49,297 bases of DNA from an uncultured Pelagibacteraceae bacterium. GTDB taxonomy: Bacteria > Pseudomonadota > Alphaproteobacteria > Pelagibacterales > Pelagibacteraceae. The translations under genes were made by a program, and so were the position numbers. The stretch's first letter is position 1. Every line of letters starts with the position of its first letter. The notes under the pieces are model-generated. The model had not been told where the DNA came from. It did no database searches and saw only the letters and a program-made list of their open reading frames with translations. The stretch spans positions 1 to 49,297 of the forward strand of contig CACNXU010000004.1 in assembly GCA_902624585.1 (NCBI GenBank), read 5' to 3'. Shown in pieces: positions 4,811 through 32,924 of the stretch.

Positions 4811-4814
4811 AATC

Positions 4815-5966: not shown

Positions 5967-6070
5967 ATACTGCTTAAATTCAGCTTTAATTGATTAATAT
6001 TAACAAATTTATTTTTCAATTCAGAATAGACAAAAAAGTTTTTTTCGTTTAGTTTGGCGACTTTAATTTT
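5967..6070. other. Intergenic region upstream of the aminotransferase
   Basis: This gap of 104 bases is one of the longer ones in the window. It is almost pure A/T with runs of A and T. I see no stem-loop strong enough to call and no promoter pair with good spacing, although it must hold whatever start signal the aminotransferase uses. No Shine-Dalgarno sequence precedes the ATG at 6071. Confidence 0.4.
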
Positions 6071-7237
6071 ATGAAATTAGCTGAGTCATTAAATAGATTA
6101 GGTACTGAAAGTGCTTTCACAGTTTTAGCTGAAGCTAAAAAACTTGAAGCACAAGGTAAACCAATGATTCATTTAGGTTTAGGTCAACCTGATTTTAAAA
6201 CACCTAAGCATGTTGTTGAAGCTGCAAAAAAAGCTTTGGATGATGGTCATCATGGTTATGTTATGTCTAATGGTATTCCAGAATGTAGGCAAGCGGTAAC
6301 TAGATGGATTAAAAAGCGTTATAATGCAGACGTTGATTTCGAGAGAATACTTATTATGCCAGGTGGTAAACCAACCATGCATTATGCTATTCAATGTTTT
6401 GGTGAACCAGGCGCTGAAATAATTCACCCAACACCTGCATTTCCAATTTATGAGTCTATGATAAATTATACTGGTTCAAAAGCAGTGTCATATGACTTAA
6501 CAGAAGATAAGGACTTAAAATTTAATGCAGATAAAATTTTGTCCTTAATAACTGATAAAACTAGATTGTTAATTTTAATTAATCCAAACAATCCAACAGG
6601 AAGTTTTGTAGAAAAACCAGAAATTGACAAGTTAGCTGAAGGATTAAAAAAACATCCACATGTAACAATTTTAAGTGATGAAATTTATAGTAGACAAATA
6701 TTTGACGACAAAGAAATGCCAACCTTTTTTAATTATCCTGAGTTACGAGATAGATTAATTGTCCTAGAAGGCTGGAGTAAAGCTTATTCAATGACTGGTT
6801 GGAGACTTGGTTGGAGCTTTTGGCCAGAACACTTAGTTGAACATGTAAACAAATTATTAATCAATAGTGTATCATGTGTAAATGCTGCTGCACAGTTTGC
6901 AGGTATTGCAGCTTTAGATGGTCCAGATGACTCAATTCATGAAATGATGGAAAAATTTACTCAAAGAAGAAAACTAATACACGAGGGATTAAACAGTCTA
7001 CCTGGTGTTGAATGCAGTTTACCTGGAGGCGCTTTTTATGCATTTCCAAAAGTGATAGAAACTGGAATGAATGGTTCTGAATTTTGCAAAAAAGCAATGC
7101 ATGAAGCTGGAGTTGCTATTGTTCCAGGAACAGCTTTTGGTAAAACTTGTCAAGATTACGTAAGATTTAGTTTTGCAGCTTCTAGAGATAATATTTCTCA
7201 AGCATTAGACAATATAAAAAAAATGCTTACTAAATAA
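6071..7237 (+). CDS. Class I/II pyridoxal-phosphate aminotransferase (AspB-like)
   Basis: Fold-type I PLP aminotransferase expected to move an amino group between an amino acid and a 2-oxoacid in the cytoplasm. It has 388 residues, typical of aspartate/aromatic-type class I enzymes. Motifs in order: HLGLGQPDF near residue 34, the LINPNNPTGSF segment, SDEIYS, and the PLP lysine Lys237 in SKAYSMTGWRLGW. A C-terminal VRFSFAASRDNI segment includes the substrate-carboxylate Arg. It lies between hydroxyacid dehydrogenases, so it could aminate the 2-oxoacids they produce; that link is inferred from position only. The specific substrate is not evident. Confidence 0.85.
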   Translation: MKLAESLNRLGTESAFTVLAEAKKLEAQGKPMIHLGLGQPDFKTPKHVVEAAKKALDDGHHGYVMSNGIPECRQAVTRWIKKRYNADVDFERILIMPGGKPTMHYAIQCFGEPGAEIIHPTPAFPIYESMINYTGSKAVSYDLTEDKDLKFNADKILSLITDKTRLLILINPNNPTGSFVEKPEIDKLAEGLKKHPHVTILSDEIYSRQIFDDKEMPTFFNYPELRDRLIVLEGWSKAYSMTGWRLGWSFWPEHLVEHVNKLLINSVSCVNAAAQFAGIAALDGPDDSIHEMMEKFTQRRKLIHEGLNSLPGVECSLPGGAFYAFPKVIETGMNGSEFCKKAMHEAGVAIVPGTAFGKTCQDYVRFSFAASRDNISQALDNIKKMLTK

Positions 7238-7275
7238 GCTGTATTTTATTCAAATTTTTTATTATTATCGCCATA

Positions 7276-8649
7276 ATGAATGAACAAGTTAAAAGTGAAT
7301 TAAAAAAAATCTTTAACGGAAGATTTTCCACATCTGAGTCAACAAGAGCAAATTATGCAAGAGGTGAGGATACTTATGACCCTATATTGTCACAAGCAGT
7401 TGTATTCCCAGAGACAAATGAGGAAGTTTCTCAAATTTTAAAATTATGCAATGAGCACAAAATACCAGTTGTACCTTTCGGAACGGGAACTTCCTTAGAG
7501 GGAAACGCTGTTGGTAACTCAAATGGAATAACAATTTCATTAGAAAAAATGAATAAAGTTTTGTCGGTAAATGCTGAAGATTTTGACTGCAGAGTTCAAG
7601 CTAATGTCACCAGAAAACAATTAAATGAATATTTAAGAGAAGACGGTGTTTTTTTTCCAATTGACCCAGGTGCTGACGCTGCATTAGGAGGCATGGCATC
7701 AACATCTGCTTCGGGAACAATGGCTGTTAAATATGGAACAATGAGAACAGTTATTTCAGGCTTAACAGTAATTTTACCAAATGGTGATATAATTAAGACA
7801 GGAGCTCGAACAAAAAAAACATCAGCTGGTTATAATTTAACAAACTTATTTATAGGATCTGAAGGCACTCTTGGTATAATTACTGAGGTGCAACTTAGAT
7901 TGTCACCAATTCCTGAAAGTATTATGAGTGCTGTATGCTATTTTCCCGATCTAGCTTCAGCAGTTAAAACTGCACAAGAAGTCATACAATATGGAGTACC
8001 TATTGCGAGAATTGAAATGCTCAATAAAGATCAAATGGAAATAAGTATTAAGTATTCTAAGTTAGATAATATTAAAGCATCTCCAACTTTATTTTTTGAG
8101 TTTCATGGTAGTGAGACAACAAACAATGAGTCAATAAGTATTGTTGAAGAATTATCTAAAAATAATAATGGCAGTGATTTTCAGTGGGCATCTTCTCCAG
8201 AAGAACAAAAAAAATTGTGGAAAGCAAGACATGATGTTTATTATTCAGTAAAAGCTTTAGGTGACAATATGAAAGTTTATTCAACAGATGTTTGTGTACC
8301 AATATCTAGATTGGTTGAATGTATTTCCTGGGCTGAAAAAGAGGTCAAAAGATTGGGACTTACTGCTCCAATGGTTGGACACGTCGGTGATGGAAATTTT
8401 CATTCAATAGTTTTATACGACCCACAGGATAAAGAAAAACAAAAAAAAATAAGACAGTATAGCGATGACTTAATCAGTAAAGCTCTAGAATTAGAAGGCA
8501 CTATCACAGGTGAGCATGGTATTGGACTCCAAAAGAAACATTATCTTTTAAAAGAACATCACGATAACGTTCCTGTTATGAAAGCAATTAAGAGAAGTTT
8601 AGATGTTAACAATATTATGAATCCAGGAAAAGTTTTTGATTTAAACTAA
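7276..8649 (+). CDS. FAD-linked 2-hydroxyacid dehydrogenase (GlcD / D-lactate dehydrogenase type)
   Basis: FAD-binding oxidoreductase of the vanillyl-alcohol-oxidase fold that oxidises a D-2-hydroxyacid such as D-lactate or glycolate and passes electrons to the respiratory chain. Its 457 residues match GlcD and bacterial DLD lengths. The FAD-binding part shows PFGTGTSLEGNAVG, a long glycine/alanine-rich stretch starting GADAALGGMAS and FIGSEGTLGIITE. The C-terminal cap domain has GHVGDGNFHS and GEHGIGLQKKHYL, the His-rich region that contacts substrate, and ends IMNPGKVFD. No GlcE or GlcF partner adjoins it, which favours a stand-alone DLD-like enzyme over the three-subunit glycolate oxidase. 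It is followed after 11 bases by a D-2-hydroxyacid dehydrogenase. Confidence 0.87.
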   Translation: MNEQVKSELKKIFNGRFSTSESTRANYARGEDTYDPILSQAVVFPETNEEVSQILKLCNEHKIPVVPFGTGTSLEGNAVGNSNGITISLEKMNKVLSVNAEDFDCRVQANVTRKQLNEYLREDGVFFPIDPGADAALGGMASTSASGTMAVKYGTMRTVISGLTVILPNGDIIKTGARTKKTSAGYNLTNLFIGSEGTLGIITEVQLRLSPIPESIMSAVCYFPDLASAVKTAQEVIQYGVPIARIEMLNKDQMEISIKYSKLDNIKASPTLFFEFHGSETTNNESISIVEELSKNNNGSDFQWASSPEEQKKLWKARHDVYYSVKALGDNMKVYSTDVCVPISRLVECISWAEKEVKRLGLTAPMVGHVGDGNFHSIVLYDPQDKEKQKKIRQYSDDLISKALELEGTITGEHGIGLQKKHYLLKEHHDNVPVMKAIKRSLDVNNIMNPGKVFDLN

Positions 8650-8660
8650 TCAAAATAGTC

Positions 8661-9614
8661 ATGAAAAAAATACTTATTACTAGAAAACTTTTAAGATCTT
8701 GTGAAGATAAAGCTGAAGAAATGTTTGATGCAAATTTCAATTCTAACGACGAACTTTATTCACAAAAAAAACTCATAGAGTTAAGTGCAGGCAAGGATGG
8801 CATTCTATCCTCTTTAACGGATAAACTGGATACCGAAACAATAAACCAACTTCCAGATAGCATTAAAATTATATCAAATTTTGCTGTTGGATTTGGAAAT
8901 ATAGATTTAGACGCTGCTAAAAATAGAGGTATTGCTGTAACAAACACACCAGATGTTTTAACAGATGCAACAGCTGAAATTGGAATTTTGTTAATACTTG
9001 GTGCATGTAGAAGAGCTTCAGAAGGAATTGAAAGTGCAAAACAAGGCGGCTGGAAATGGTCAGCAGACTATTTAATAGGAAAACAACTAACTGGATCTAG
9101 ATTAGGAATTTTAGGAATGGGAAGAATTGGTCAAAAAATTGCAAAGATAGCGAGTTCTTTAGGTATGATTATTCATTATCATAACCGATCAAAATTAAGT
9201 GAAGATAAAGAACAAGGTGCAACTTATCATGATAATTTAAAAAGTCTTTTGTCAGTATCTGATGTACTTTCTGTATGTTGTCCTGCATCAAAAGAAACAG
9301 TAGATATGATTAATAAAGAGACATTGGAGTACTTACCAAAAGGTGCTGTTGTTACTAACGTTGCTAGAGGAGATATTATTGAAGATGAAGCTATGATTGA
9401 TGCTCTTGATAGGAGAAAAGTTTATGCAGTCGGTTTAGATGTATACAAAAATGAGCCAAATTTAAATCCAGGTTATTTAAAACATAAAAGTGCTTTCATC
9501 CTCCCACATCTTGGCAGCGCAACTAAAGACACTCGTACCGCAATGGCTAACTTAGCTATTGATAATTTGGATGAATACTTCAAAACGGGAAATTGTAAAA
9601 ATAAAGTAAATTAA
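8661..9614 (+). CDS. D-isomer-specific 2-hydroxyacid dehydrogenase (glyoxylate/hydroxypyruvate reductase-like)
   Basis: NAD(P)-dependent D-2-hydroxyacid dehydrogenase that interconverts a 2-oxoacid and its D-hydroxyacid, for example glyoxylate and glycolate. Its 317 residues carry the nucleotide-binding motif LGILGMGRIGQKIA and the catalytic set: Arg of NVARGD (near residue 236), Glu of KNEP (near 264) and His of LPHLGSAT (near 282). Together with the preceding FAD dehydrogenase it could form a reversible glycolate/glyoxylate or lactate/pyruvate couple; this is inferred from adjacency and family. The downstream gene is convergent, 17 bases away, and no clear terminator hairpin is visible between them. 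Confidence 0.87.
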   Translation: MKKILITRKLLRSCEDKAEEMFDANFNSNDELYSQKKLIELSAGKDGILSSLTDKLDTETINQLPDSIKIISNFAVGFGNIDLDAAKNRGIAVTNTPDVLTDATAEIGILLILGACRRASEGIESAKQGGWKWSADYLIGKQLTGSRLGILGMGRIGQKIAKIASSLGMIIHYHNRSKLSEDKEQGATYHDNLKSLLSVSDVLSVCCPASKETVDMINKETLEYLPKGAVVTNVARGDIIEDEAMIDALDRRKVYAVGLDVYKNEPNLNPGYLKHKSAFILPHLGSATKDTRTAMANLAIDNLDEYFKTGNCKNKVN

Positions 9615-10604: not shown

Positions 10605-11594
10605 ATGAAAATATTAAAAAAAATAATTTTTTCTCTAATTTTTGTTTCTATTGCAAGTGCAAGCATTGCTGAAACAAAAATGAGAATAACTCTTCAACTA
10701 CCTTTAAAAGCACACTTAGGTCAAAACCTTTTAGTGTTTAAAAAAGAATTGGAGTCAAGATCAGACATAAAAGTAGAAATTTATGACTCTGCACAACTTT
10801 ATAAAGACAAGGAAGTGCCTCAAGCTGTAGGTTCAGGCGCTATTGAGGCAGGTGTTGCGTCAATAACTAGATTTGCGGGCACAAATCCAGAGGTTGATAT
10901 TTTTTACTTACCATTTCTATTTGACTCAGAGGCAAAAATTAGAAAAGCAACCAAAGCTGGATCTGAAATCAGATCAATACTTGACCCGGCTATAGCTTCT
11001 ACAGGCGCTGTACCATTGTATTATCAGGCTTATGGATCTGCAATTATGCTTTCTAATGGCGGACCTATGAAATCGCCTTCTGATTTTAAAGATAAGAAAA
11101 TCAGAGTCTTTGGAAAAACTTTAGGAGCTTTTATAAGTTCTTTAGGGGGTAAGCCTGCATTAATATCTGGATCTGAACAATACCTAGCTTATCAAAGAAA
11201 AACTGTAGATGCTGGTATGACAGGAGTATCGGGTGTTAAATCAAGAAAGCTTTATCAAGTTATGGACACTTTAACAGTAACTAATCATGGAGATATAGAG
11301 TTCGTTGTTGTTGCAAACGATAAATGGTTAAAATCATTAACTCAAAAACAAAGAGATGCCATTGCTGAAGCTTCTAAAGTCGCTGAGAAGGCTGTTAGAG
11401 ATGACATGGCTAATATAGAAGCAGCTGCTTATAAAGAAGCAAAAGAAAATGGGATGAATATTGTGAACTTATCAAGTTCTGAAACATCTGCTCTTAAAAA
11501 AGCATCTTCCTCAGTAATAGATGATTATATTTCTAGAACTGGTGGAGCTGGTGGAGTCGGCGATAAGTTAGTTAAAGCTGCTAACAATCTATAA
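10605..11594 (+). CDS. TRAP transporter 1 substrate-binding protein (DctP family)
   Basis: Periplasmic binding protein that captures an organic acid-like ligand and delivers it to the TRAP membrane subunits encoded next. It has 329 residues with a Sec signal peptide (hydrophobic residues about 6-20, probable cleavage after SIA). The DctP core includes DKKIRVFGKTLGAF, whose Arg is the usual ligand-carboxylate contact, and later AYQRKTVDAGMTG and HGDIEFVVVANDKW. The ATG has a good GAGGG ribosome site. A stem-loop follows before dctQ. The ligand is unknown; the downstream lyase and dehydrogenase suggest a C3-C6 hydroxy or oxo acid. Confidence 0.9.
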   Translation: MKILKKIIFSLIFVSIASASIAETKMRITLQLPLKAHLGQNLLVFKKELESRSDIKVEIYDSAQLYKDKEVPQAVGSGAIEAGVASITRFAGTNPEVDIFYLPFLFDSEAKIRKATKAGSEIRSILDPAIASTGAVPLYYQAYGSAIMLSNGGPMKSPSDFKDKKIRVFGKTLGAFISSLGGKPALISGSEQYLAYQRKTVDAGMTGVSGVKSRKLYQVMDTLTVTNHGDIEFVVVANDKWLKSLTQKQRDAIAEASKVAEKAVRDDMANIEAAAYKEAKENGMNIVNLSSSETSALKKASSSVIDDYISRTGGAGGVGDKLVKAANNL

Positions 11595-11610
11595 TTAAAT
11601 ATAAAATAAA

Positions 11611-11632
11611 CCCCACAATTAAATTTGTGGGG
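11611..11632 (+). terminator. Stem-loop between TRAP 1 dctP and dctQ
   Basis: A perfect 8-bp stem, CCCCACAA (11611-11618) with TTGTGGGG (11625-11632), closes a TTAAAT loop and is followed by TTTT. It looks like a weak intrinsic terminator or mRNA-stabilising hairpin after the binding-protein gene. The dctQ ATG at 11640 is only 7 bases beyond the stem, so the 3' arm occupies the place of the ribosome-binding site. Confidence 0.75.
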
Positions 11633-11639
11633 TTTTGTT

Positions 11640-12116
11640 ATGAATTACTACGATAAAATTGTAAAATATTCAGGTTATTTAGCGTCAGCTTTATTTATAT
11701 CTATAGGATTTATAGTTTCTTATGAAGTTATCATGAGATACTTGTTTAATTCACCTACTATTTGGGTGAATGAGGTTTCAAGGTTTTTACAAATTTGGGC
11801 GACTTATCTTGCATTAACTTATTCATTTCATAAACAAGATTTTATTAGAATTACTGTTATTTACGATAGATTAAATGAAACTGGAAAAAAAATTTTAGAT
11901 TTTATTAGTTTTATTTTTATTATTATCTTTAGTTGTTTCGTTGTTTATTATGGATGGTTAATTGCATATGACTCTTTAAAAGTCGGACGAACCAGCTCAA
12001 CTATTTTAGATGTTCCGTCATTTTTAACAGAATTAGCGATACCTCTCTGTTTCGCTTTTTTAGTTTTAAGAGTAATTTTGGAGGCAATAAGATATATTAG
12101 GAATTTTTCCAAATGA
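11640..12116 (+). CDS. TRAP transporter 1 small permease (DctQ family)
   Basis: Small membrane subunit of a TRAP transporter, 158 residues with four predicted membrane helices. It contains the family-typical WVNEVSRFLQIWATYLA segment in helix 2 and a conserved following loop. I use the ATG at 11640; a TTG at 11625 would extend the frame but lies inside the stem-loop and adds no conserved residues. The 3' end overlaps the large-permease ATG by 4 bases. Confidence 0.88.
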   Translation: MNYYDKIVKYSGYLASALFISIGFIVSYEVIMRYLFNSPTIWVNEVSRFLQIWATYLALTYSFHKQDFIRITVIYDRLNETGKKILDFISFIFIIIFSCFVVYYGWLIAYDSLKVGRTSSTILDVPSFLTELAIPLCFAFLVLRVILEAIRYIRNFSK

Positions 12117-13384
12117 TAGTTGCAATAATTCTTTTTGTTCTTTTTTCAATATTATTTTTAGGAGTGCCAATCGCCTTTGGTCTTGGTTCGCTGGGTTTGG
12201 GTTTAATGTTATTAGGGGATATTTCCCCTCTTATGATTCCGCAGACCTTTTATAGTGTTGCAGATAATTTTATACTTTTAGCTGTACCAATGTTTTTAAT
12301 GATGTCTAATATTCTTTTAAAAGCAGGTGTTGGTGAAGATCTGTTTAATTTTGCTCAAAGCTGGGTAGGAAATTTTCCAGGAGGATTAGCAATAGCAACT
12401 ATAGTTTCATGCAGTATTTTTGCAGCAATCTCGGGTTCATCAGTTGCTACTGCTGCAACGATTTCAACTGTAGCATTCCCTGCAATGATTAAAAGAGGTT
12501 ATCATAGAAATTTTACATTGGGTATTTTAGCTGCAGGAGGAACATTAGGAATTTTAATACCTCCCTCTATTCCAATGATTGTATATGCATTTGTTGTTGA
12601 AGAATCTGTATTAAGTATGTTTTTAGCTGGTATTGGACCAGGAATAGTATTGGCACTTTTTTTTATTATTTTTTCAGTCATTTATGTAATTTTTTTTAAT
12701 AAAGAAGTTCAGAATGTCAAAACTTCATTTGAAGATAAAATTAAATATACAAAAAAAGGTTTACCAGTTCTACTAATGGCTTTTATAATGTTAGGAGGAA
12801 TTTATGCTGGTATATATACTCCTACCGAAGCAGGTGGAATAGGTTTTTTAATATCTTTTATATACGTTGTTACAAAAAAAAAATTAGATTTTAAAGGTTT
12901 TATGGAGGCTGGTTTAGAAACCATGAAGACAACAGTAACAATATTTATTATTATAGCTGGTGCAAAAATTTTTGGTAAAGCTATTTCGCTTTATAGAATA
13001 CCTCAAGAACTCTCTGCTTTTATTGTTACAAATATAACCGAGCAAGGAATGTTTATATTCGTTGTTGCAATCACTTTATTAATTCTAGGATTTATAATGG
13101 AAACCTTGTCATTAATATTAATTATGATGCCTATATTTGCTATCTCTATTGCTGCAATGAATATAGATTTAATTTGGTTTGGAATTATTTTTACACTTAT
13201 GATTGAGTGTGCATTGATAACACCGCCTGTAGGCTTAAATATTTATGTTTTGCAAGCGATTGGAAAAGCAAAAATGTCTGAAATAGCCAAAGGTGTTATA
13301 CCTTTTGTACTAATCATGCTTTTTACAGTTTATGTGATTTACTTGTTTCCTGACTTAGCATTATATATACCTTTTAAATTATAA
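12113..13384 (+). CDS. TRAP transporter 1 large permease (DctM family)
   Basis: Large membrane subunit that forms the sodium-coupled translocation path of TRAP transporter 1. Its 423 residues in about 12 hydrophobic segments are typical of DctM. Visible motifs are LGVPIAFGLG in the first helix, the GSSVATAATISTVAFPAM segment and the GGTLGILIPPSIPMIVYA re-entrant hairpin. A C-terminal ALITPPVGLNIYV segment follows. It overlaps dctQ by 4 bases and is followed 2 bases later by the lyase gene, so transport and metabolism share an operon. Confidence 0.92.
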   Translation: MIVAIILFVLFSILFLGVPIAFGLGSLGLGLMLLGDISPLMIPQTFYSVADNFILLAVPMFLMMSNILLKAGVGEDLFNFAQSWVGNFPGGLAIATIVSCSIFAAISGSSVATAATISTVAFPAMIKRGYHRNFTLGILAAGGTLGILIPPSIPMIVYAFVVEESVLSMFLAGIGPGIVLALFFIIFSVIYVIFFNKEVQNVKTSFEDKIKYTKKGLPVLLMAFIMLGGIYAGIYTPTEAGGIGFLISFIYVVTKKKLDFKGFMEAGLETMKTTVTIFIIIAGAKIFGKAISLYRIPQELSAFIVTNITEQGMFIFVVAITLLILGFIMETLSLILIMMPIFAISIAAMNIDLIWFGIIFTLMIECALITPPVGLNIYVLQAIGKAKMSEIAKGVIPFVLIMLFTVYVIYLFPDLALYIPFKL

Positions 13385-22024: not shown

Positions 22025-23182
22025 ATGATTAAAGATAAAAAATCATTGAAGGGTTCTAAAACTCCTTCAAGAAGAAAGTTCTTCAAAGCCGCAGCAGCGA
22101 CAGGTGCAGCAGCAGCAACTGCTGTAGCTATGCCAAACGTTGCATTTGGTGCTCCACAAACATTAAAGATGCAAGCAGCATGGCCATCAGGCGCGAATAT
22201 CTTTTTTGAAATGGCTGGAGATTATGCCAAAATGGTAGGAGACATGTCAGGTGGAAGTTTAAAAATAGATCTTCAGCCTGTTGGAGCAGTTGTTAAAACT
22301 GGAGAAATTGGACAAGCTGTAAGTGATGGTGTACTTGATATGGGTCACTGGGTTACTGCTTACTGGTATGGAAAAAATCCTGCCGCGTCTCTTTTCGGAA
22401 CTGGCCCATCTTATGGTCTATCATCTCAAGAAGTAATGGCTTGGATGGAAGAAGGTGGTGGAAGAGCATTATATGAAGAAACACTAGCTAAAGTTGGATA
22501 TGACTACGTCGGTGTTTTTGCAATGCCAATGCCTGCACAGCCATTTGGTTGGTTTAAAAAGAACGTAACTAAAGTATCTGATGTTAAAGGTATGAAGTAC
22601 AGAACAGTTGGTCTTGCAACTAACGTTCTTACAGCAATGGGAATGGTAGTTAGACAATTACCAGGCGGTGAAATTCAGCCAGCAATGAAAACTGGTTTGA
22701 TTGAAGCTGCTGAGTTTAACAACCCTACATCAGACTCTCAGTTTGGTATGCAAGATGTTTCTAAGCATTATCACTTAGGATCTTTCCACCAATCTCAAGA
22801 GATGTTTGAAATACCGATTAACAAAAAGACATTTAATAGCTTATCTCCTGCGAACCAAGCAATCTTAAAAAATGCTTCTTATGCAGCAAATACTGCTAAC
22901 TACTTTAAAGCTTTGGTAAGATACTCTGCTGATTTATCAAAACTGATGAATGAGCATAAAGTAAATGTTTACCAAACTTCAGATGCAATTCTTGCAGAGC
23001 AGTTAAAAGGTTGGGATAAAGTTATAGGTGACTTCTCTTCTAAAGACCCGTTCTTTAAGAAGATTGTTGATTCACAAAAAGCTTACGCAAAAAGAGTAAT
23101 GAAATACTTACTAATGAATCAACCTAACTACAGACTTGCTTATGAAAATGAGTTTGGTCCGTTAGCGAAAGTTAAAATCTAA
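22025..23182 (+). CDS. TRAP transporter 2 substrate-binding protein, Tat-exported (TakP-like)
   Basis: Periplasmic TRAP binding protein of 385 residues. The N-terminus is a twin-arginine signal: SRRKFFK (residues 15-21), then an Ala-rich hydrophobic stretch ending near AFGA. The core has GMKYRTVGLATNVL, LPGGEIQPAMKTG and AEFNNPTSD. I associate these with the 2-oxoacid-binding TakP group and related mannitol/chloroaromatic-type TRAP proteins, so pyruvate or another 2-oxoacid is a reasonable guess. An intrinsic terminator follows the gene. Its first 27 residues match 22 of 27 in the TRAP 3 binding protein, while the rest is much more diverged. Confidence 0.9.
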   Translation: MIKDKKSLKGSKTPSRRKFFKAAAATGAAAATAVAMPNVAFGAPQTLKMQAAWPSGANIFFEMAGDYAKMVGDMSGGSLKIDLQPVGAVVKTGEIGQAVSDGVLDMGHWVTAYWYGKNPAASLFGTGPSYGLSSQEVMAWMEEGGGRALYEETLAKVGYDYVGVFAMPMPAQPFGWFKKNVTKVSDVKGMKYRTVGLATNVLTAMGMVVRQLPGGEIQPAMKTGLIEAAEFNNPTSDSQFGMQDVSKHYHLGSFHQSQEMFEIPINKKTFNSLSPANQAILKNASYAANTANYFKALVRYSADLSKLMNEHKVNVYQTSDAILAEQLKGWDKVIGDFSSKDPFFKKIVDSQKAYAKRVMKYLLMNQPNYRLAYENEFGPLAKVKI

Positions 23183-23203
23183 GGTTTAAAGATATAAAAA
23201 ATT

Positions 23204-23231
23204 AAGGGGGCTTTTTAGCCCCCTTTTTTTT
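23204..23231 (+). terminator. Intrinsic terminator after the TRAP 2 binding-protein gene
   Basis: The stem GGGGGCT (23206-23212) with AGCCCCC (23217-23223), extended by two A-T pairs, has a TTTT loop and is followed by a run of 8 T. This is a textbook intrinsic terminator placed inside the operon, before the two permease genes. Partial read-through would give high binding-protein and low permease expression. Confidence 0.88.
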
Positions 23232-23271
23232 AATTGAATTTATTAAGAAAATTAAGATAAGTTAGTCGTTT

Positions 23272-23856
23272 ATGCATTCTTATATAAAATTTGCCGATAC
23301 CCTTAGCTCCTCAATGGGAAAAGCTTTTTCATGGTGTATTGTAATATTAATGGGTGGAACATGTTATGAGGTAATAATGGCTTATGCTTTTAACGCTCCA
23401 ACTTTATGGAATTTTGATTTTAGTCTTCAGATGTATGGCGCTATTTTCATGATGGCAGGTGCATACACTTTAGCAACTGAGGCTCATGTCAGGGGAGATG
23501 TAATTTACAGATTATTCCCAACAAAAGTTCAAGGATGGATAGATTTAGTATTGTATTTTATATTCTTCTTTCCTGGAGTAATTGCCCTTGCTTTTTATGG
23601 ATATGAATATGCAGCTAAGGCTTGGATGGTAAAAGAAACTAGTTGGAATAGTCCCGCGCAAATTCAAATTTATATGGCTAAATCTTTAATACCTCTGTCA
23701 GGTATACTTCTTACTATTCAAGGAGTGAGCGAAGTATTTAGAGCAATTATATGTATTAAGACAGGACATTGGCCTGAAAGAGAAGCTGGTGCCGAAGAAA
23801 CTGAAAAAATTTTAATGAGAAAATCAAAAGAGGAAGAAGATATTGATGTTGTTTAG
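23272..23856 (+). CDS. TRAP transporter 2 small permease (DctQ/FcbT2-like)
   Basis: Small membrane subunit, 194 residues with four membrane helices. Helix 2 has FDFSLQMYGAIFMMAGAYTL and is followed by EAHVRGDV, a loop shared by this TRAP subgroup. The charged C-terminal tail (about residues 168-194) is longer than in TRAP 1. It lies 40 bases beyond the terminator, with no clear ribosome site. The end overlaps the large-permease start by 14 bases. Confidence 0.88.
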   Translation: MHSYIKFADTLSSSMGKAFSWCIVILMGGTCYEVIMAYAFNAPTLWNFDFSLQMYGAIFMMAGAYTLATEAHVRGDVIYRLFPTKVQGWIDLVLYFIFFFPGVIALAFYGYEYAAKAWMVKETSWNSPAQIQIYMAKSLIPLSGILLTIQGVSEVFRAIICIKTGHWPEREAGAEETEKILMRKSKEEEDIDVV

Positions 23857-25207
23857 TCTTACAAATCCAGAAATTGCTATTTTAATGATGGTAATATTTT
23901 TGTTTGCTGTTCTTTTAGGTTTTCCGATCGCCTTTACTTTAATGGCAATGGGATTAGGATTTGGATACTATGCATATTTTGATCCATCCAGAATGGATCA
24001 TTTATTTGACAATAGGATATTTAAATTATTTGTTCAAAACACCTATTCTGTCATGGATAATCATGTCCTCACCGCCGTACCCTTATTTTTATTTATGGGA
24101 TACTTAGTTGAAAGAGCAGGAATAGTTGCAAGGTTATTTTATGCAATCAGGCTTGCCTCTCATTCTCTTCCAGCGTCGATGGCTGTTGCGGCTTTGATTA
24201 CATGCACTTTATTTTCAACTGCAACAGGTATAATCGGGGCCGTTGTAACTTTAATGGGTTTACTTGCATGGCCTGCAATGGTTAAGGCTGGTTATGATAA
24301 AAAATTTGCATCAGGAGTTATATGTGCTGGTGGTTGTCTAGGAATTTTAATCCCGCCAAGTATAATGCTTATTGTTTATGCTGTGATAGCCCAGCTATCG
24401 CCACTTAGATTGTTTGCAGCTGCAATATTCCCAGGTTTAATGTTGGCAGGCTTATATATTTTATATGCTATTATTTTAGCTTACTTTAATCCGTCAATAG
24501 CACCAAAACCTCCTAAAGAGGAAATACCTCCAAGAGCAGTTATATTAAAAGAAGTTCTTGTATCTTTTTTACCTTTATTTTCTCTTATTATTTTAGTTTT
24601 AGGGAGCATTCTCGCTGGCTTAGCAACTCCCGCAGAAGCAGCAGGAGTGGGTGCATTCGGAGCTTTGGTTTTATCATTCTTTTATAAGTCGCTTAAATGG
24701 AAAAATTTTAAAGAGTCAGTTTTTTTAACAGCAAAAACCACTGCAATGATTATGTGGTTATTTATTGGATCTTGGACATTTGCATCCGTATTTTCATATT
24801 TAGGTGGACACGAGGTCTTCGAACATTTTTTTAAGTCAATGGATATTAAACCTTGGCAGTTTTTAGTTATTACACAGATCATAATATTTTTATTAGGTTG
24901 GCCGTTAGAATGGACTGAAATATTAATTATATTTGTACCAATATTTTTACCACTAGTAGAATTTTTCGGAGTTAACCCTTACTTTTTTGCAATGTTAATT
25001 GCTTTAAATTTGCAGACTTCATTTTTAACACCCCCCATGGCAATGTCAGCTTATTACTTAAAAGGTGTACAATCTAAAAATGTCGAATTAATCGAAGTAT
25101 TTAAAGGGATAATGCCTTTTTTAGCAATTGTTATTTTAGGAATGGTTTTAATGTATTTATTTCCAGGTATAGCTTTATGGCTACCTGATCAGTTATTTGC
25201 AAACTAA
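23843..25207 (+). CDS. TRAP transporter 2 large permease (DctM/FcbT3-like)
   Basis: Large translocation subunit of TRAP transporter 2, 454 residues with about 12 membrane segments. LGFPIAFTLM in the first helix, ATGIIGAVVTLMGLLAWPAM, GGCLGILIPPSIMLIVYAV and LQTSFLTPPMAMSAYYLKG near the C-terminus are the expected DctM landmarks. It overlaps the small permease by 14 bases and is followed 4 bases after its stop by the amidase ATG. Confidence 0.92.
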   Translation: MMLFSLTNPEIAILMMVIFLFAVLLGFPIAFTLMAMGLGFGYYAYFDPSRMDHLFDNRIFKLFVQNTYSVMDNHVLTAVPLFLFMGYLVERAGIVARLFYAIRLASHSLPASMAVAALITCTLFSTATGIIGAVVTLMGLLAWPAMVKAGYDKKFASGVICAGGCLGILIPPSIMLIVYAVIAQLSPLRLFAAAIFPGLMLAGLYILYAIILAYFNPSIAPKPPKEEIPPRAVILKEVLVSFLPLFSLIILVLGSILAGLATPAEAAGVGAFGALVLSFFYKSLKWKNFKESVFLTAKTTAMIMWLFIGSWTFASVFSYLGGHEVFEHFFKSMDIKPWQFLVITQIIIFLLGWPLEWTEILIIFVPIFLPLVEFFGVNPYFFAMLIALNLQTSFLTPPMAMSAYYLKGVQSKNVELIEVFKGIMPFLAIVILGMVLMYLFPGIALWLPDQLFAN

Positions 25208-26846: not shown

Positions 26847-27971
26847 ATGATTAAAGAAAAAAAATCATTGAAGGTTTCTAGATCACCTTCAAGAAGAAAG
26901 TTCTTTAAAACTGCAGCTGCAACTGGTGTTGCTGCTGTTGCTTTATCTGCTCCAGCTGTTGCCAAAGAAAGAGTAGAAGCTTCTATGGTAGCAACTTGGC
27001 CTAGAGATTTTCCAGGCTTAGGAACTGGCGCACAAAGACTTGCTCAAAGATTAAGCGACATGAGTGATGGTCGAATTCAAGTCACTTATTACGCTGCTAA
27101 TGAAAGAGTTAAAGCATTTGACTCGTTTGATGAAGTTGCATCAGGTAACTCGCAAATGTATCACGGTGCTGATTACTATTGGGTTAAAAAACACCCTGCA
27201 TTTGGATATTTTACTGCAGTTCCATTCGGTTTCACATATGCTGAAATGAATGCATGGTTAAAATTTGCTGGTGGACAAGAGTTGTGGGATGAATTGACCG
27301 ATGATTTTGGTACACAAAGTTTTGCTGCTGGTAATACTGGAGTGCAAATGGGTGGTTGGTTTAATAAAAAAATTAGATCAGCTAATGACTTTAAAGGTTT
27401 AAAAATGCGTATGCCTGGTTTAGGTGGACAAGTTCTTGGAAAACTTGGTGGTTCTCCAATTTCACTACCTGGTGGACAAATTTATGAAAACCTTGTGTCA
27501 GGTGCAATAGATGCAACAGAATGGGTAGGACCTTGGAATGATGAAGCGATGAAATTCCAGGAAGCTGCTAAGTATTATTACTATCCAGGAATGCATGAAC
27601 CAGGATCTACGTTAGCATGTGGTGTTAATAAATCTTGGTTTACTAGTTTGTCAAAATCAGATCAGTTAATTATTAAAACTGCATGTGATTGGGCTGACAC
27701 AACTACAATGGCTGAATACAATGCTAAAAACGGAGCTGCACTAGCACGATTAGTAAACGAAAGTGGAGTTAAACTAGAGAAGTTTAACGATAAAGTTTAT
27801 GATGCTTTCGCTAAAGGTGCTGCTGAAGTTTTCGATGAAGTTCAACAACATAGTGCTCTTGCTAAGAAAGTACATGCTGCCTTTGTTAAAGGTCGTAAGG
27901 AAATTGGTGCTTGGACTAACTTGTCTGACGGGCCATATGTTGCTCAAAGAAATAGAGCATTAGGAGTATAA
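26847..27971 (+). CDS. TRAP transporter 3 substrate-binding protein, Tat-exported
   Basis: Periplasmic TRAP binding protein of 374 residues with a twin-arginine signal (SRRKFFK at 15-21, Ala-rich helix, APAVAKE cleavage region). The core has LKMRMPGLGGQVL with the conserved Arg, LPGGQIYENLVSG and DATEWVGPWNDEA, typical of the mannitol/chloroaromatic-type TRAP group. The aromatic-rich AAKYYYYPGMHEPG follows. Its signal-peptide region and promoter resemble those of the TRAP 2 binding protein far more than the mature domains do. A hairpin follows the gene. Confidence 0.9.
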   Translation: MIKEKKSLKVSRSPSRRKFFKTAAATGVAAVALSAPAVAKERVEASMVATWPRDFPGLGTGAQRLAQRLSDMSDGRIQVTYYAANERVKAFDSFDEVASGNSQMYHGADYYWVKKHPAFGYFTAVPFGFTYAEMNAWLKFAGGQELWDELTDDFGTQSFAAGNTGVQMGGWFNKKIRSANDFKGLKMRMPGLGGQVLGKLGGSPISLPGGQIYENLVSGAIDATEWVGPWNDEAMKFQEAAKYYYYPGMHEPGSTLACGVNKSWFTSLSKSDQLIIKTACDWADTTTMAEYNAKNGAALARLVNESGVKLEKFNDKVYDAFAKGAAEVFDEVQQHSALAKKVHAAFVKGRKEIGAWTNLSDGPYVAQRNRALGV

Positions 27972-27991
27972 TTTAATTCCAATTATTATTG

Positions 27992-28013
27992 GAGGGCCCT
28001 TAAATGGGCCCTC
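27992..28013 (+). terminator. Stem-loop after the TRAP 3 binding-protein gene
   Basis: A perfect 8-bp stem, GAGGGCCC (27992-27999) with GGGCCCTC (28006-28013), closes a TTAAAT loop, the same loop sequence as in the TRAP 1 hairpin. It is followed by TTTATTA, a weak T-run, so partial termination or 3'-end protection is likely before the permease gene at 28044. Confidence 0.8.
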
Positions 28014-28043
28014 TTTATTATATATCATTAAAAGATTTTTAAT

Positions 28044-29027
28044 ATGATGGCCAAAAATAACTTATCTATTTTAATAAGAATATTTAGTTATTCTATTTTA
28101 GCCTTAACATTAGTTTTTCTCATCAATAATGTTTTAACAGTTTGGTTTGATTGGCCAGGAGTAAAAAAACTTTTTGCTCATTATGAATTATTTGGATTTA
28201 AAAAATTAAATAAACCTTTGGAGGGGCTAGCAATAAACTTATCATATATTCAATTACTATTTTATTTTGCGTCTTTCATAGGTGTTATATTTTTTGTTCT
28301 AAAATCTATAAAACAAACATTACAAACCGACTCTGAGATCTTAACGAAAATTACAGCTTACGTTGTAAGATCTTCTTTCTGGGCTGTGTTAATAGTTGGA
28401 GTAGCAGATTTTTTAATTTCATTTATGGTTGTGGAAAAACTAGTTGAGCCAATTTTTGGAGAACAACTTAAAATTAATTTAGTAATACCTGCTTTCAGAA
28501 TTACATATATACACTTTCCTTTAATATTGGCCTCTTTTGTAATTGGTTTTTTTACAAGATCTGTAGGGTTTATTTGGCTAGCGGTTTTAGTTGTTGGAAG
28601 TGAATTTTTGATAGTTCTCTCAAGATTTATATTTCAGTATGAACAGGCATTTCAGGGAGATCTTGTTCGTTTTTGGTATGCAGCTCTTTATTTATTTGCC
28701 AGCGCCTATGCTTTAATTCACGAGGGCCATGTTAGAGTTGATGTTCTTTATACTGGTTTTAGTGAACGTAAAAAAGCATGGACTAATGCAATTGGGTCAT
28801 TAATTCTAGGAATTCCTTTATGTTTGATTGTAATATTTTTAGGCATGGGGGGCAAAGCTAGTATCATCAATGGTCCTGTAATTTCATTTGAAATTACGCA
28901 GCAAGGTTCAAACGGTTTATATTTACTTTATCTAATGGCAGTTTATTTAGCTGTTTTTGCAGTAAGTATGTTAACTCAATTCACTAGCTACTTTATGAGT
29001 AGCAGTCACAAACTTTTAAAAAATTAA
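28044..29027 (+). CDS. TRAP transporter 3 small permease, enlarged (DctQ-like)
   Basis: DctQ-family membrane subunit that is unusually large, 327 residues against about 160-200 normally. The C-terminal half carries the DctQ core (FWYAALYLFASAYALIHEGH, then VRVDVLYTGFSERKKAW). The N-terminal half adds several extra hydrophobic segments (near residues 11-33, 67-88, 107-131 and 150-173). Large DctQ forms are known in the FcbT2-like group. The start could be the ATG at 28044 or the next ATG at 28047. It is 3 bases ahead of the large permease. Confidence 0.82.
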   Translation: MMAKNNLSILIRIFSYSILALTLVFLINNVLTVWFDWPGVKKLFAHYELFGFKKLNKPLEGLAINLSYIQLLFYFASFIGVIFFVLKSIKQTLQTDSEILTKITAYVVRSSFWAVLIVGVADFLISFMVVEKLVEPIFGEQLKINLVIPAFRITYIHFPLILASFVIGFFTRSVGFIWLAVLVVGSEFLIVLSRFIFQYEQAFQGDLVRFWYAALYLFASAYALIHEGHVRVDVLYTGFSERKKAWTNAIGSLILGIPLCLIVIFLGMGGKASIINGPVISFEITQQGSNGLYLLYLMAVYLAVFAVSMLTQFTSYFMSSSHKLLKN

Positions 29028-29030
29028 ATA

Positions 29031-31682
29031 ATGGAACATTTATTTTTAGCTTTACTTGTAATTATAATGATTGGAGCACTAGCTTCTGGTTTTCCAGTAG
29101 CTTTTGCATTACCTGGATCAGCAATAATTTCAATCGGGCTAGCTGCTTTTTTTGGTTATTTATTTGCAGGAGATAGTAGTGCTTATTTTGCTGTTGATGG
29201 TCCCAAAGAATGGTTAACCGCCGGTATTACAAACTTTAGGAGCAACTACTGGGATGTAGAAACTGATACTTTAATTGCAATTCCTTTATTTATTTTCATG
29301 GGGATCATGCTGCAAAAATCAAAAATTGCGGAAGATCTTTTAGTTACAATGGGGCAGTTGTTTGGACCTATCCCTGGAGGTTTAGGAATATCAGTAATTT
29401 TTGTTGGGGCGTTACTTGCAGCTACCACGGGTATTGTTGGTGCAACAGTAATAGCAATGGGATTAATATCACTACCCACAATGCTTAATAATAAATATGA
29501 TAAAAGTTTGGCAAGTGGAATTGTTTGTTCATCAGGAACTCTTGGGCAAATTATACCTCCTTCTATTGTATTAATTATCATAGCCGATCAATTAGCTAGC
29601 GCAGCAGACGTTGCAAATACTATGCGTCAGACTGATTACAAAATTTTAACTGGTGAATTTAATATGCCTGGAGAATTTAGAGTGGGTTCTACTTCTGCAG
29701 GAGATATGTTTTTGGGGGCATTATTACCTGGTTTAGTATTGGTTGGTTTGTATATGATTTATGTATTTATTTACGCAAGATTAAATCCTAAGGCAGCTCC
29801 TCCCGTTCCATTTAAAGGAAATTTTGACTCAAAATTTTGGATGAAGGTTTTAATAGTAATTATTCCTCCTCTTGCTTTAATATTTGCAGTTTTAGGATCT
29901 ATACTTTTAGGTATAGCAACCGTTAATCAAGCTGGATCTATTGGAGCAATAGGTGCAACTATGATGGCAGGTTATCGTTTACATAAAGGAAAAAAAGATG
30001 CTTATTATCCAATTATAATTGCAATTTTATCAGTCATTCCAATTTATATTTTATCTAAGAATTATAATTTAAATATTAAGGCTGTAGAAACTAGAGATCT
30101 TACAGCAATTTTTATAACAGGATTTTTTACAATTACTTTTTTAATTGGAATTATATGGAGTTTTTGGAGAGCGTACAAAATTGAGAATGTTTTAAGAGAG
30201 GTTGTTACAGAAACATGCGTAACGACTTCAATGGTTTTTATAATTTTATTGGGAGCTGCAATGTTAACCTCTGGATTTAGAGCGTTTGGAGGTGAAGAGT
30301 TAGTAAGAGATTTTCTTCAAGATCTACCAGGTGGATTTTGGACACAGTTTATCGTTGTAATGGCAGTGATTTTCTTACTAGGTTTCTTTCTTGATTTTAT
30401 TGAAATAGCTGTAGTTGTTGTTCCTATAATTGCTCCAATATTATTAGCTGAACCAGGAGCTAATGTGAGTGCAATTTGGCTTGGTGTAATGATTGGGGTG
30501 AATTTGCAAACCTCATTTTTAACACCACCATTTGGTTTTGCACTATTTTACTTAAAAGGTGTAGCTTCAAAACTTGTTACTACTTTAAATATCTGGAAAG
30601 GTGTAGTTCCATTCATTATTTTACAATTAATAGGTCTTGGAATTGTAGGTTTCTATCCATCATTAGTAAATTACCTGCCAGCAAGAACATATTTAACATC
30701 GAATGTTGCTCCACCACCGATGAATCCAAAGCTACAATATTGCTTACAAGAGTACAAATTTGCAATTTATAACACTGAAGAACAAAGAATTACTAATGCA
30801 ATAAAAGACATGCAGAAATTAACTCCCGCAAATCTTCCAATAGATAAACTAGATATTTTTGAAGAGCATTTTGATAATGCGCTTGGAACTTTTGCTATTG
30901 TTAAAAAACTTCAAAAAACGGAAGAAGAATATGAATTATTTACAAAAGATTATAGGGACTTACATTTCAATGTAAGAAAAATTGAGAAAAAAATTAGAAA
31001 AATAGATCAGAAAATTAAAAAAACTAAAGCGGAAATTAGAAATTTAGACGACGATAATTTATCAGCAAAAAATAAATTAGAATTAAAAATTGAAAATTAC
31101 GAGCTAGAAATTAATGAGCTTCAAAATAAAATTCCTGAAAGTTGGAAAGATAAAAATGGAGAATTTGAAGTATTACACAAAGCAAAAAACACTAGAACAA
31201 AAAGATATAGAAAAAATGTTGATGAAGCTTATGAAACTCTGGATCAAATAGTAATGTTTATAAATGATAATGAAAAATTAAAAGAACTTTCATCAGAAAT
31301 AAAAGAATTAAAATATTCCATAGATAATAAAAATTATGAAAACGCAATATCAATCATTGATAATCTTTTTGAAAAATTAGGAGAAATTTCTGGAACTGAA
31401 GAATTTGCAAATAAATTAGATGACCTAATATCTGTTATAGATAATGATGAGATAGATGAGCAAAAATTAATTGAAGTAAGTTCAGAAACTTTCAATCTTT
31501 TTAATTTAGAAGTTTCATGGAGAGATGATGCTAATAAGAATTTGATTCCTGAATTAACTAAATATAATGACGCTATCAAACATAATATTGGTCTAAGACT
31601 TCAAAACAGATTAACTAAAGAGCAAGCTAAATTTGTTGCAAGGTGTAACTCAGTTCATAGAGATATATCTTTAAACTTTTAA
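29031..31682 (+). CDS. TRAP transporter 3 large permease fused to a C-terminal coiled-coil domain
   Basis: DctM-family large permease with an unusual tail, 883 residues in one uninterrupted frame. Residues 1 to about 548 are the membrane domain: SGFPVAFALPGSAI, ATTGIVGATVIAMGLISLP, SGTLGQIIPPSIVLIIIADQ and LQTSFLTPPFGFALFYLKG. A region near residues 325-385 adds extra helices compared with TRAP 1. From about residue 549 to 883 the protein is soluble, charged and helical, rich in Lys, Glu, Asp, Asn and Ile, with heptad-like stretches such as KIEKKIRKIDQKIKKTKAEI. I know no name for this tail. Since the DctM C-terminus is normally near the membrane surface, the tail probably projects from the membrane. 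Its side (cytoplasm or periplasm) is not certain. Confidence 0.88.
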   Translation: MEHLFLALLVIIMIGALASGFPVAFALPGSAIISIGLAAFFGYLFAGDSSAYFAVDGPKEWLTAGITNFRSNYWDVETDTLIAIPLFIFMGIMLQKSKIAEDLLVTMGQLFGPIPGGLGISVIFVGALLAATTGIVGATVIAMGLISLPTMLNNKYDKSLASGIVCSSGTLGQIIPPSIVLIIIADQLASAADVANTMRQTDYKILTGEFNMPGEFRVGSTSAGDMFLGALLPGLVLVGLYMIYVFIYARLNPKAAPPVPFKGNFDSKFWMKVLIVIIPPLALIFAVLGSILLGIATVNQAGSIGAIGATMMAGYRLHKGKKDAYYPIIIAILSVIPIYILSKNYNLNIKAVETRDLTAIFITGFFTITFLIGIIWSFWRAYKIENVLREVVTETCVTTSMVFIILLGAAMLTSGFRAFGGEELVRDFLQDLPGGFWTQFIVVMAVIFLLGFFLDFIEIAVVVVPIIAPILLAEPGANVSAIWLGVMIGVNLQTSFLTPPFGFALFYLKGVASKLVTTLNIWKGVVPFIILQLIGLGIVGFYPSLVNYLPARTYLTSNVAPPPMNPKLQYCLQEYKFAIYNTEEQRITNAIKDMQKLTPANLPIDKLDIFEEHFDNALGTFAIVKKLQKTEEEYELFTKDYRDLHFNVRKIEKKIRKIDQKIKKTKAEIRNLDDDNLSAKNKLELKIENYELEINELQNKIPESWKDKNGEFEVLHKAKNTRTKRYRKNVDEAYETLDQIVMFINDNEKLKELSSEIKELKYSIDNKNYENAISIIDNLFEKLGEISGTEEFANKLDDLISVIDNDEIDEQKLIEVSSETFNLFNLEVSWRDDANKNLIPELTKYNDAIKHNIGLRLQNRLTKEQAKFVARCNSVHRDISLNF

Positions 31683-31685
31683 TTA

Positions 31686-32924
31686 ATGGAAAATTATATT
31701 TTACCAAAAAAACAGGCTATTGTTGTTTTTTTTGTATTTGCATTTGGTTATTTTTTATCATGTTTGTTGCGTGCAATTACTGCAACACTTTCCCCCGTAT
31801 TAACTTCAGAATTTAATTTGTTAGCAGCTGATTTAGGATTATTAGCTGGGGGTTATTTTTTGGGTTTTGCTTGTATGCAAATACCACTTGGATATTTGTT
31901 AGATAAATATGGACCAAAAAAAATTGTCTCTTCTTTTTTATTAATTGCATTATTTGGAACAGGATCATTTGCTTTAGCTGAAAGTTTTTCTGGATTGTTA
32001 GTTTCGCGAATTCTAATCGGCGTAGGTGTTAGTGCTTGTTTAATGGCTCCATTAACTGGTTACAGAATATGGTATGCAGAAAATCAACAACAAAGAGCAA
32101 ACTCATGGATGCTAATGATTGCGTCATTAGGTTTTTTGTCATCCACATTGCCTGTACAACTTTTATTGCCTAGTTTCGGGTGGAGGTGGATATTTGGTGG
32201 TATCGCTATCTTAATTTTAATTAGTATTTTTTTAATGTTAGTTTTCATTCCAAAATGGAATTTAACTAAAAATAAAGAGTCAGAAGAGCCAAGTAATACT
32301 GGAACTTTATCAGAAGTTTGGAAAAATAGATTTTTTGTAAGTGTAATTCCAATGGGTTTATTTAATTATGGGGGCTTAATGGCTATACAAACTTTATGGG
32401 CAGGCCCATGGATGACTAGAGTTGCTGGTTATACACCGCTTCAGAGTGCTACAGGATTATTTTGGATCAATGTAACTATGTTGGTATCCTTTTTCTTGTG
32501 GGGTTATTTTTTACCGAAAATTTCAGGTATAGGTTTTACTGCAAAAAGAATACTTAAATTAGGTTTACCAATTAGTTTTTCTGTAATGTTTGTGATTATA
32601 TTACTAGGCCCAAAAGCTGGTGCATTCTACATAACTTTATTTATTTTAAGTTCAATTTTTTTATCAGTTACACAGCCAGCTGTGGGCCTTTCTTTTTCAG
32701 GTTATTCTGCTGGTAAAGCACTAACTTCATTTAATTTATTAATATTTGCAGGAACATTCATAATGCAATGGCTAATGGGCCTAGTGATAGATATCGTTAA
32801 AGGCATGGGTCACACAGAAATATTTGCTTTTAAATCAGCTTTTTCAGTTTTCTTAATATTAAGTATTATTTCTTATATATTTTTTTTAATATTAAATAGA
32901 AAAAAATATGAAAATAAAACGTAG
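31686..32924 (+). CDS. MFS-family permease
   Basis: Major facilitator superfamily transporter, 412 residues with about 12 membrane helices. Motif A appears between helices 2 and 3 as GYLLDKYGPKK, and helix 4 has SRILIGVGVSACLMAPLTG, as in nitrate/organic-anion-type MFS members. The middle cytoplasmic loop is near residues 190-210. It starts 3 bases after the TRAP 3 permease stop and overlaps the following hydrolase by 17 bases, so it belongs to the same transcript. The substrate is not identifiable. Confidence 0.85.
   Translation: MENYILPKKQAIVVFFVFAFGYFLSCLLRAITATLSPVLTSEFNLLAADLGLLAGGYFLGFACMQIPLGYLLDKYGPKKIVSSFLLIALFGTGSFALAESFSGLLVSRILIGVGVSACLMAPLTGYRIWYAENQQQRANSWMLMIASLGFLSSTLPVQLLLPSFGWRWIFGGIAILILISIFLMLVFIPKWNLTKNKESEEPSNTGTLSEVWKNRFFVSVIPMGLFNYGGLMAIQTLWAGPWMTRVAGYTPLQSATGLFWINVTMLVSFFLWGYFLPKISGIGFTAKRILKLGLPISFSVMFVIILLGPKAGAFYITLFILSSIFLSVTQPAVGLSFSGYSAGKALTSFNLLIFAGTFIMQWLMGLVIDIVKGMGHTEIFAFKSAFSVFLILSIISYIFFLILNRKKYENKT

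Follow-up and report, generated by a model that had tools for sequence, protein, structure and literature searches.

A conserved, probably periplasmic C-terminal arm on the large permease of a clade of DctP-type TRAP transporters in SAR11 and other Alphaproteobacteria

The large permease (DctM) of a TRAP transporter from Candidatus Pelagibacter (SAR11) continues, beyond a complete membrane domain and in the same reading frame, into an all-helical arm of about 335 residues. This arm, or tail, characterises one conserved DctM clade and, in every case examined, occurs together with an extension of four transmembrane (TM) segments in the partner subunit DctQ. Very probably it is periplasmic, and there it may help to dock the binding protein of the system. 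The DNA analysed, hereafter the window, is a stretch of 49,297 nucleotides holding three TRAP gene sets, the third of which is the tailed one (Table 1).

Table 1. Positions in the window of the TRAP gene sets and of the features of the tailed system
Feature	Position	Strand	Composition or basis
TRAP set 1	10605-13384		P 329, Q 163, M 423 aa
TRAP set 2	22025-25207		P 385, Q 194, M 454 aa; M untailed
TRAP set 3, tailed	26847-31682		P 374, Q 327, M 883 aa
dctP, TakP-like binding protein	26847..27971	+	TAT-type signal; Pfam match and ligand residues
dctQ, 327 aa	28044..29027	+	4-TM N-terminal extension (about 1-172), then DctQ domain
dctM, TRAP large permease, 883 aa with C-terminal arm	29031..31682	+	ORF, PF06808 and TIGR00786 matches, orthologs
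DctM membrane domain, residues 1-550	29031..30680	+	Alignment to PpSiaM/HiSiaQM up to 550-551
Insert, two hydrophobic segments (about residues 310-385)	29958..30185	+	Gap in PpSiaM alignment and hydropathy
C-terminal arm (tail), about residues 549-883, all-helical	30675..31679	+	AF2 of tail alone; conservation
Short strand 553-555, may pair with C-terminal strand	30687..30695	+	DSSP on AF2 model, low local confidence
Cys571, first tail cysteine, motif APPPxNPxLQxC	30741..30743	+	Tail alignments
Conserved C-terminal motif GLRLQxxLTxxQAxxVxxCxSxHRDISLxF	31587..31679	+	Tail alignments
Cys872, motif RCNSVHRDISLNF	31644..31646	+	Tail alignments
Short strand 879-881 (ISL)	31665..31673	+	DSSP on AF2 model, low local confidence
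MFS-like transporter ORF	31686..32924	+	ORF list

The dctM frame opens with ATG and runs uninterrupted to its stop. Its product matches PF06808 (DctM) at 205 bits, for a cut-off of 23.8, as far as residue 544, scores just under the cut-off of the NCBIfam dctM subfamily TIGR00786 (257 vs 268), can be aligned to PpSiaM (7qha_B) up to residue 551, and has the usual LVNYLP past the last TM segment. The ends of the PF06808 match and of the PpSiaM alignment indicate that the membrane domain is complete and that some 335 residues are extra in frame, with no stop between the two parts, as the original prediction had it. DctM proteins normally end soon after the last helix, as that prediction also stated; PpSiaM does so, and the same holds, to within a few residues, for all 24 untailed controls (among them second TRAP sets beside tailed ones, in loci L147, L159, L161 and L167). 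Where these controls have a separate Q, it measures 172-261 aa. The twin-proline sodium-site motifs are present (IIPPS, 176-177, and LTPPF, 499-500), and by its sequence the transporter is a DctP-type TRAP importer, whose predicted substrates are probably small 2-oxo acids. The membrane domain also contains a two-segment insert (about 310-385) that is not in PpSiaM and is present in an untailed relative of 590 aa; it seems to be older than the tail and, its hydrophobic segments being even in number, leaves the C-out topology preserved. The insert is common to the untailed sister at L159 and larger at L161.

Stop-free orthologs, full-length or nearly so, occur in 20 other genomes of the same genus and in more than 70 single-cell or MAG contigs, so that the junction is no assembly join. 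In the genus as a whole 21 of 61 genomes have full-length or near-full-length copies, three more have fragments at contig ends, and two complete genomes have no tailed DctM, which makes the distribution patchy within the genus. Among 385 genomes sampled across the Alphaproteobacteria, a profile of the tail matched 31 (24 of 276 genera), and a more diverse profile returned the identical 31. The matches always lay in open frames of 838-960 aa, i.e., fused to DctM. The profile search for the tail as a separate protein or in other fusions gave none in this sample or in that of the phylum, where matches were confined to alphaproteobacterial genomes; one SAR324 MAG and one MarineAlpha5 MAG also carry a tailed DctM. 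When 54 DctM membrane domains are placed in a maximum-likelihood tree, the 35 tailed ones all group together as a single clade (100/100), which is nested beside untailed relatives; some long branches leave its exact sister group unsure, and a single gain would be enough to explain the tail. Selection on the tail is purifying and weaker than on the membrane part, with dN/dS of 0.08-0.17 vs 0.02-0.06. The base composition, described earlier as host-like, is so at third codon positions (GC3 of 0.146 in the tail vs 0.177 in the membrane part), which agrees with the view that the tail is no recent insertion, but not overall (GC of 0.262 vs 0.337), the lower value being due to the Lys/Asn/Glu-rich content of the tail. 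Two other origins were considered and rejected: IMG/VR and phage records hold no relatives that would indicate a viral source, and DctM relatives do exist on plasmids, yet no place on these covers 80% of a tailed query.

Searches of Pfam, NCBIfam, PHROGs and PDB with the tail returned coiled-coil background (SMC, Rad50, COG4_N, designed coiled coils) and no consistent family, and fold searches with both AF2 models (tail and full-length) gave no PDB match at E <= 0.001. In the open-access literature searched, we found no description of such a domain on DctM, and according to a 2024 paper no DctP-type TRAP had been reported with a C-terminal extension of this kind (PMC11574862). The tail is therefore as uncharacterised as had been supposed, and the domain libraries and open-access papers hold no described DctM subfamily to which it would belong.

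AlphaFold2 predicts the tail alone, from 23 sequences, as a confident all-helical structure (pLDDT 84.9, pTM 0.71), with helices at residues 566-596, 604-671, 677-699 and 705-745, a run of shorter ones at 747-803, and further helices at 810-837, 839-850 and 863-871, the longest of them having 68 residues or roughly 100 A. Confidence is low at both ends of the tail (about 40-60), where the two short strands are weakly paired; as each end of the sequence bears one of these strands and one of the cysteines, the modelled chain probably runs out and returns, closing at its base. The full-length model is unreliable for the membrane domain (pLDDT 56). In all, 124 distinct tails were read, 123 of them intact, and 121 of the 124 measure 331-346 aa. 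Across Alphaproteobacteria the two ends hardly change while the middle varies, and the C-terminal residue is Phe in 123 of the 124, including every intact tail. Two shortened tails (about 314 residues at L169 and about 248 at L170) have lost middle helices and retain both ends, both cysteines and the C-terminal Phe. The tail had been called a heptad-rich coiled coil, of which the helical half stands and the heptad pattern is weak: in a crude test, its peaks of helical periodicity (100-105 degrees) were no higher than those of shuffled sequences. A strong heptad coiled coil being unsupported by this test, helical bundle or arm is the safer name.

The side of the membrane on which the tail lies can be approached from both homology and the cysteines. 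The M subunit of PpSiaQM, a distant homolog, has by cryo-EM 12 TM segments in an N-out/C-out arrangement (PMC9971032), and a later paper likewise places the C-terminus of SiaQM in the periplasm (PMC11801797). Exactly two cysteines are found in 123 of the 124 distinct tails (248-346 residues long), many of which are from close Pelagibacter relatives, the exception being the broken contig L020; the same two-cysteine pattern is found in all 30 diverse alphaproteobacterial loci and in the SAR324 copy. The first cysteine lies 20-odd residues past the last TM segment, and the second invariably precedes the C-terminal residue by 11 positions. As the first tail search pattern included the first cysteine, it matters that a profile-only search with no cysteine requirement added one further copy, which is frame-broken. 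An invariant pair, with no cysteine elsewhere in the tail, points to a disulfide and through it to the periplasm. From the homology and the cysteines combined we place the tail in the periplasm with high confidence, and the cysteine pattern makes a C571-C872 disulfide very likely.

The DctQ of the tailed set is, as originally claimed, about twice the normal size (327 aa vs 163 and 194 aa in the other two sets of the window). The PF04290 (DctQ) match (41.1 bits, cut-off 28.3) is confined to residues 188-309, and the first 172 or so residues form the four-TM extension, which contains no known domain. An origin by duplication of DctQ is not supported (hhalign probability 0.7%), and the loops NNYLxFWxDWPG and FRGxxVHxPL of the extension are conserved (28044-28559). 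The 38 long DctQs read, of 327-369 aa, come without exception from tailed systems. The DctP scores 169 bits against PF03480, and the solved proteins closest to it are the keto-acid-binding 7ug8 and TakP (2hzk/2hzl). It aligns to TakP from end to end with 130 identities in 348 positions, keeps six of the six residues that bind pyruvate and the cation there (Y100 Q156 R177 E214 W215 E240 in TakP, PMC1839085; Y111 Q167 R188 E225 W226 E251 here), and reaches TakP residue 352, spanning the long C-terminal region through which TakP dimerises. TakP is a helix-swapped dimer (PMC1839085); the window DctP may be described as TakP-like, predicted to be dimeric and predicted to bind alpha-keto acids. A DctP that is also TakP-like, judging by sequence, stands beside the untailed M of the second set (22025-25207), from which it follows that the arm is an addition and no requirement for that type of binding protein.

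The P-Q-M gene order is kept across alphaproteobacterial loci, and some neighbors recur. The MFS-like ORF starts 3 bases past the dctM stop codon and is possibly co-transcribed with dctM; the two genes are still neighbors in several relatives from Pelagibacter (L003, L004, L006, L008). Two tandem genes resembling FMN-dependent alpha-hydroxyacid dehydrogenases, a putative FAD-linked oxidase gene and a D-2-hydroxyacid dehydrogenase-like gene (3659-9614) share the window with the putative 2-oxo-acid TRAP. Upstream of the tailed dctPQM, at a distance of a few hundred bases, many alphaproteobacterial loci have a gene resembling bpt (N-degron pathway, aspartate/glutamate leucyltransferase): the 30 loci have 15 such ORF matches, most of them just upstream of dctP (L141, L142, L144, L145, L149, L154, L157, L158, L161, L165, L166), sometimes with DUF404/DUF403-like or MotA/MotB-like genes further upstream. 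None adjoins the operon in the Pelagibacter window.

As for what the arm does, it would start at the periplasmic face, right where the last TM segment ends, extend outward and then back on helices of up to 68 residues, and have its ends pinned near the membrane by the C571-C872 disulfide, and joined also by the pairing of residues 553-555 or so with the conserved ISL strand. Because it would then stand beside the face at which the binding protein docks, its likeliest job, in our reading, is to dock a TakP-type binding protein, a role that we infer and to which we give about an even chance. The arm would hold, orient or locally concentrate the dimeric TakP-like DctP and then hand it to the Q-M core, whilst the four-TM extension of Q would probably brace the same face. 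It is the signature of cysteine pair and terminal Phe, taken with the long DctQ and the TakP-like DctP, that brings docking ahead of a tether or a sensor. The original prediction had left all three roles standing (tethering the transporter, sensing load or recruiting another protein); recruitment, here of the binding protein, now leads, and load sensing in the cytoplasm is unlikely for a tail that is probably periplasmic.

The arm could instead be a self-association or bracing domain, in which two arms pair, or the arm pairs with the added TM segments of Q, to give a stable Q-M dimer; it would then have little or no contact with DctP. Helical arms often dimerise, the VcINDY-type elevator relatives are dimers, HiSiaQM undergoes monomer-dimer self-association (PMC10942642), a dimeric Q-M would match the dimeric TakP binding proteins (PMC1839085), and the arm is always accompanied by the Q extension. 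We nevertheless regard this as rather unlikely, given that conservation is highest at the two ends, whereas a dimer interface would be expected to follow the helices, and that the heptad signal is weak. We consider it improbable that the arm is a spacer or tether, crossing the periplasm to peptidoglycan, outer membrane or a porin and so bringing the importer near the entry point; the reach of the longest helix and the narrow range of tail lengths would fit such a role, but the middle of the arm is its least conserved part, two lineages have shorter tails, and the domain libraries recognise no peptidoglycan-binding, lipoprotein or outer-membrane domain in it. A cytoplasmic tail, sensing load or recruiting an enzyme or regulator, is very improbable: Lys/Glu-rich helical domains are indeed common in the cytoplasm, and the topology of DctM is known from homologs outside the tailed clade, but PpSiaM is C-out by cryo-EM (PMC9971032) and an invariant cysteine pair with no others is the pattern of an oxidised compartment. 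That sequencing or assembly had joined dctM to a neighboring gene can be dismissed, with 124 distinct copies (123 intact) from many separate genomes and the tail never met as a separate gene.

A model of oligotroph uptake that was built for ABC transporters, and whose setting is oligotrophs such as SAR11, holds that slow diffusion of the binding protein limits uptake (PMC8168909); by analogy, we infer that an arm capturing that protein could be useful in SAR11. Tentatively, and well short of even confidence, we propose that Alphaproteobacteria including SAR11 have a widespread class of DctP-type TRAP transporters with a disulfide-closed helical receptor arm on M in the periplasm, gained together with the four-TM extension of Q, which would capture a dimeric alpha-keto-acid-binding protein and relieve this diffusion limit. 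SAR11 bacteria are among the most abundant in the ocean, and there the arm belongs to a transporter whose likely substrates are small 2-oxo acids. To our knowledge, how TRAP binding proteins find and dock on their membrane subunits is an open question, the published tripartite views being models. A clade whose permease bears a discrete domain that could be deleted from the presumed docking face, and two cysteines open to mutation one at a time, puts this question within direct reach of experiment.

Compared with known systems, the tailed clade widens the architecture of DctP-type TRAPs (TC 2.A.56; SiaPQM, DctPQM), with which it has in common the P-Q-M set, the DctM and DctQ Pfam domains, the twin-proline sodium-site motifs and a TAT/secreted DctP. 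Whereas PpSiaM (427 aa) ends within a few residues of its last TM segment, the M of the window adds the arm of about 335 aa, along with a two-TM insert in M and a four-TM extension in Q; the untailed relatives of this M have a short Q. TakPQM of Rhodobacter sphaeroides, which takes up alpha-keto acids (PMC1839085), is alike in its binding protein, through the six ligands and an alignment that extends over the C-terminal region. The periplasmic domain of MalF in the maltose ABC transporter, which has been compared to the claw of VcGluQM (PMC11574862), is another permease-borne periplasmic domain near a docking face, as the arm would be, but it belongs to an unrelated class of transporters and no similarity to the arm was found. 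The claw itself is a periplasmic C-terminal domain predicted to stabilise docking of the binding protein, within a C-terminal extension that its authors call TAXI-specific (PMC11574862). It differs from the arm in being mainly beta-sheet (DUF3394), placed between two extra TM helices of a three-TM extension, and in being part of a TAXI-type system with Q and M fused, whereas the window has separate Q and M subunits of the DctP type and an all-helical arm with no extra TM segment after the core and no match to DUF3394 in the domain libraries. Even so, as a periplasmic extension at the C-terminus of the membrane component and an aid to docking, which the arm too may be, the VcGluQM claw is its nearest precedent, though unrelated in fold.
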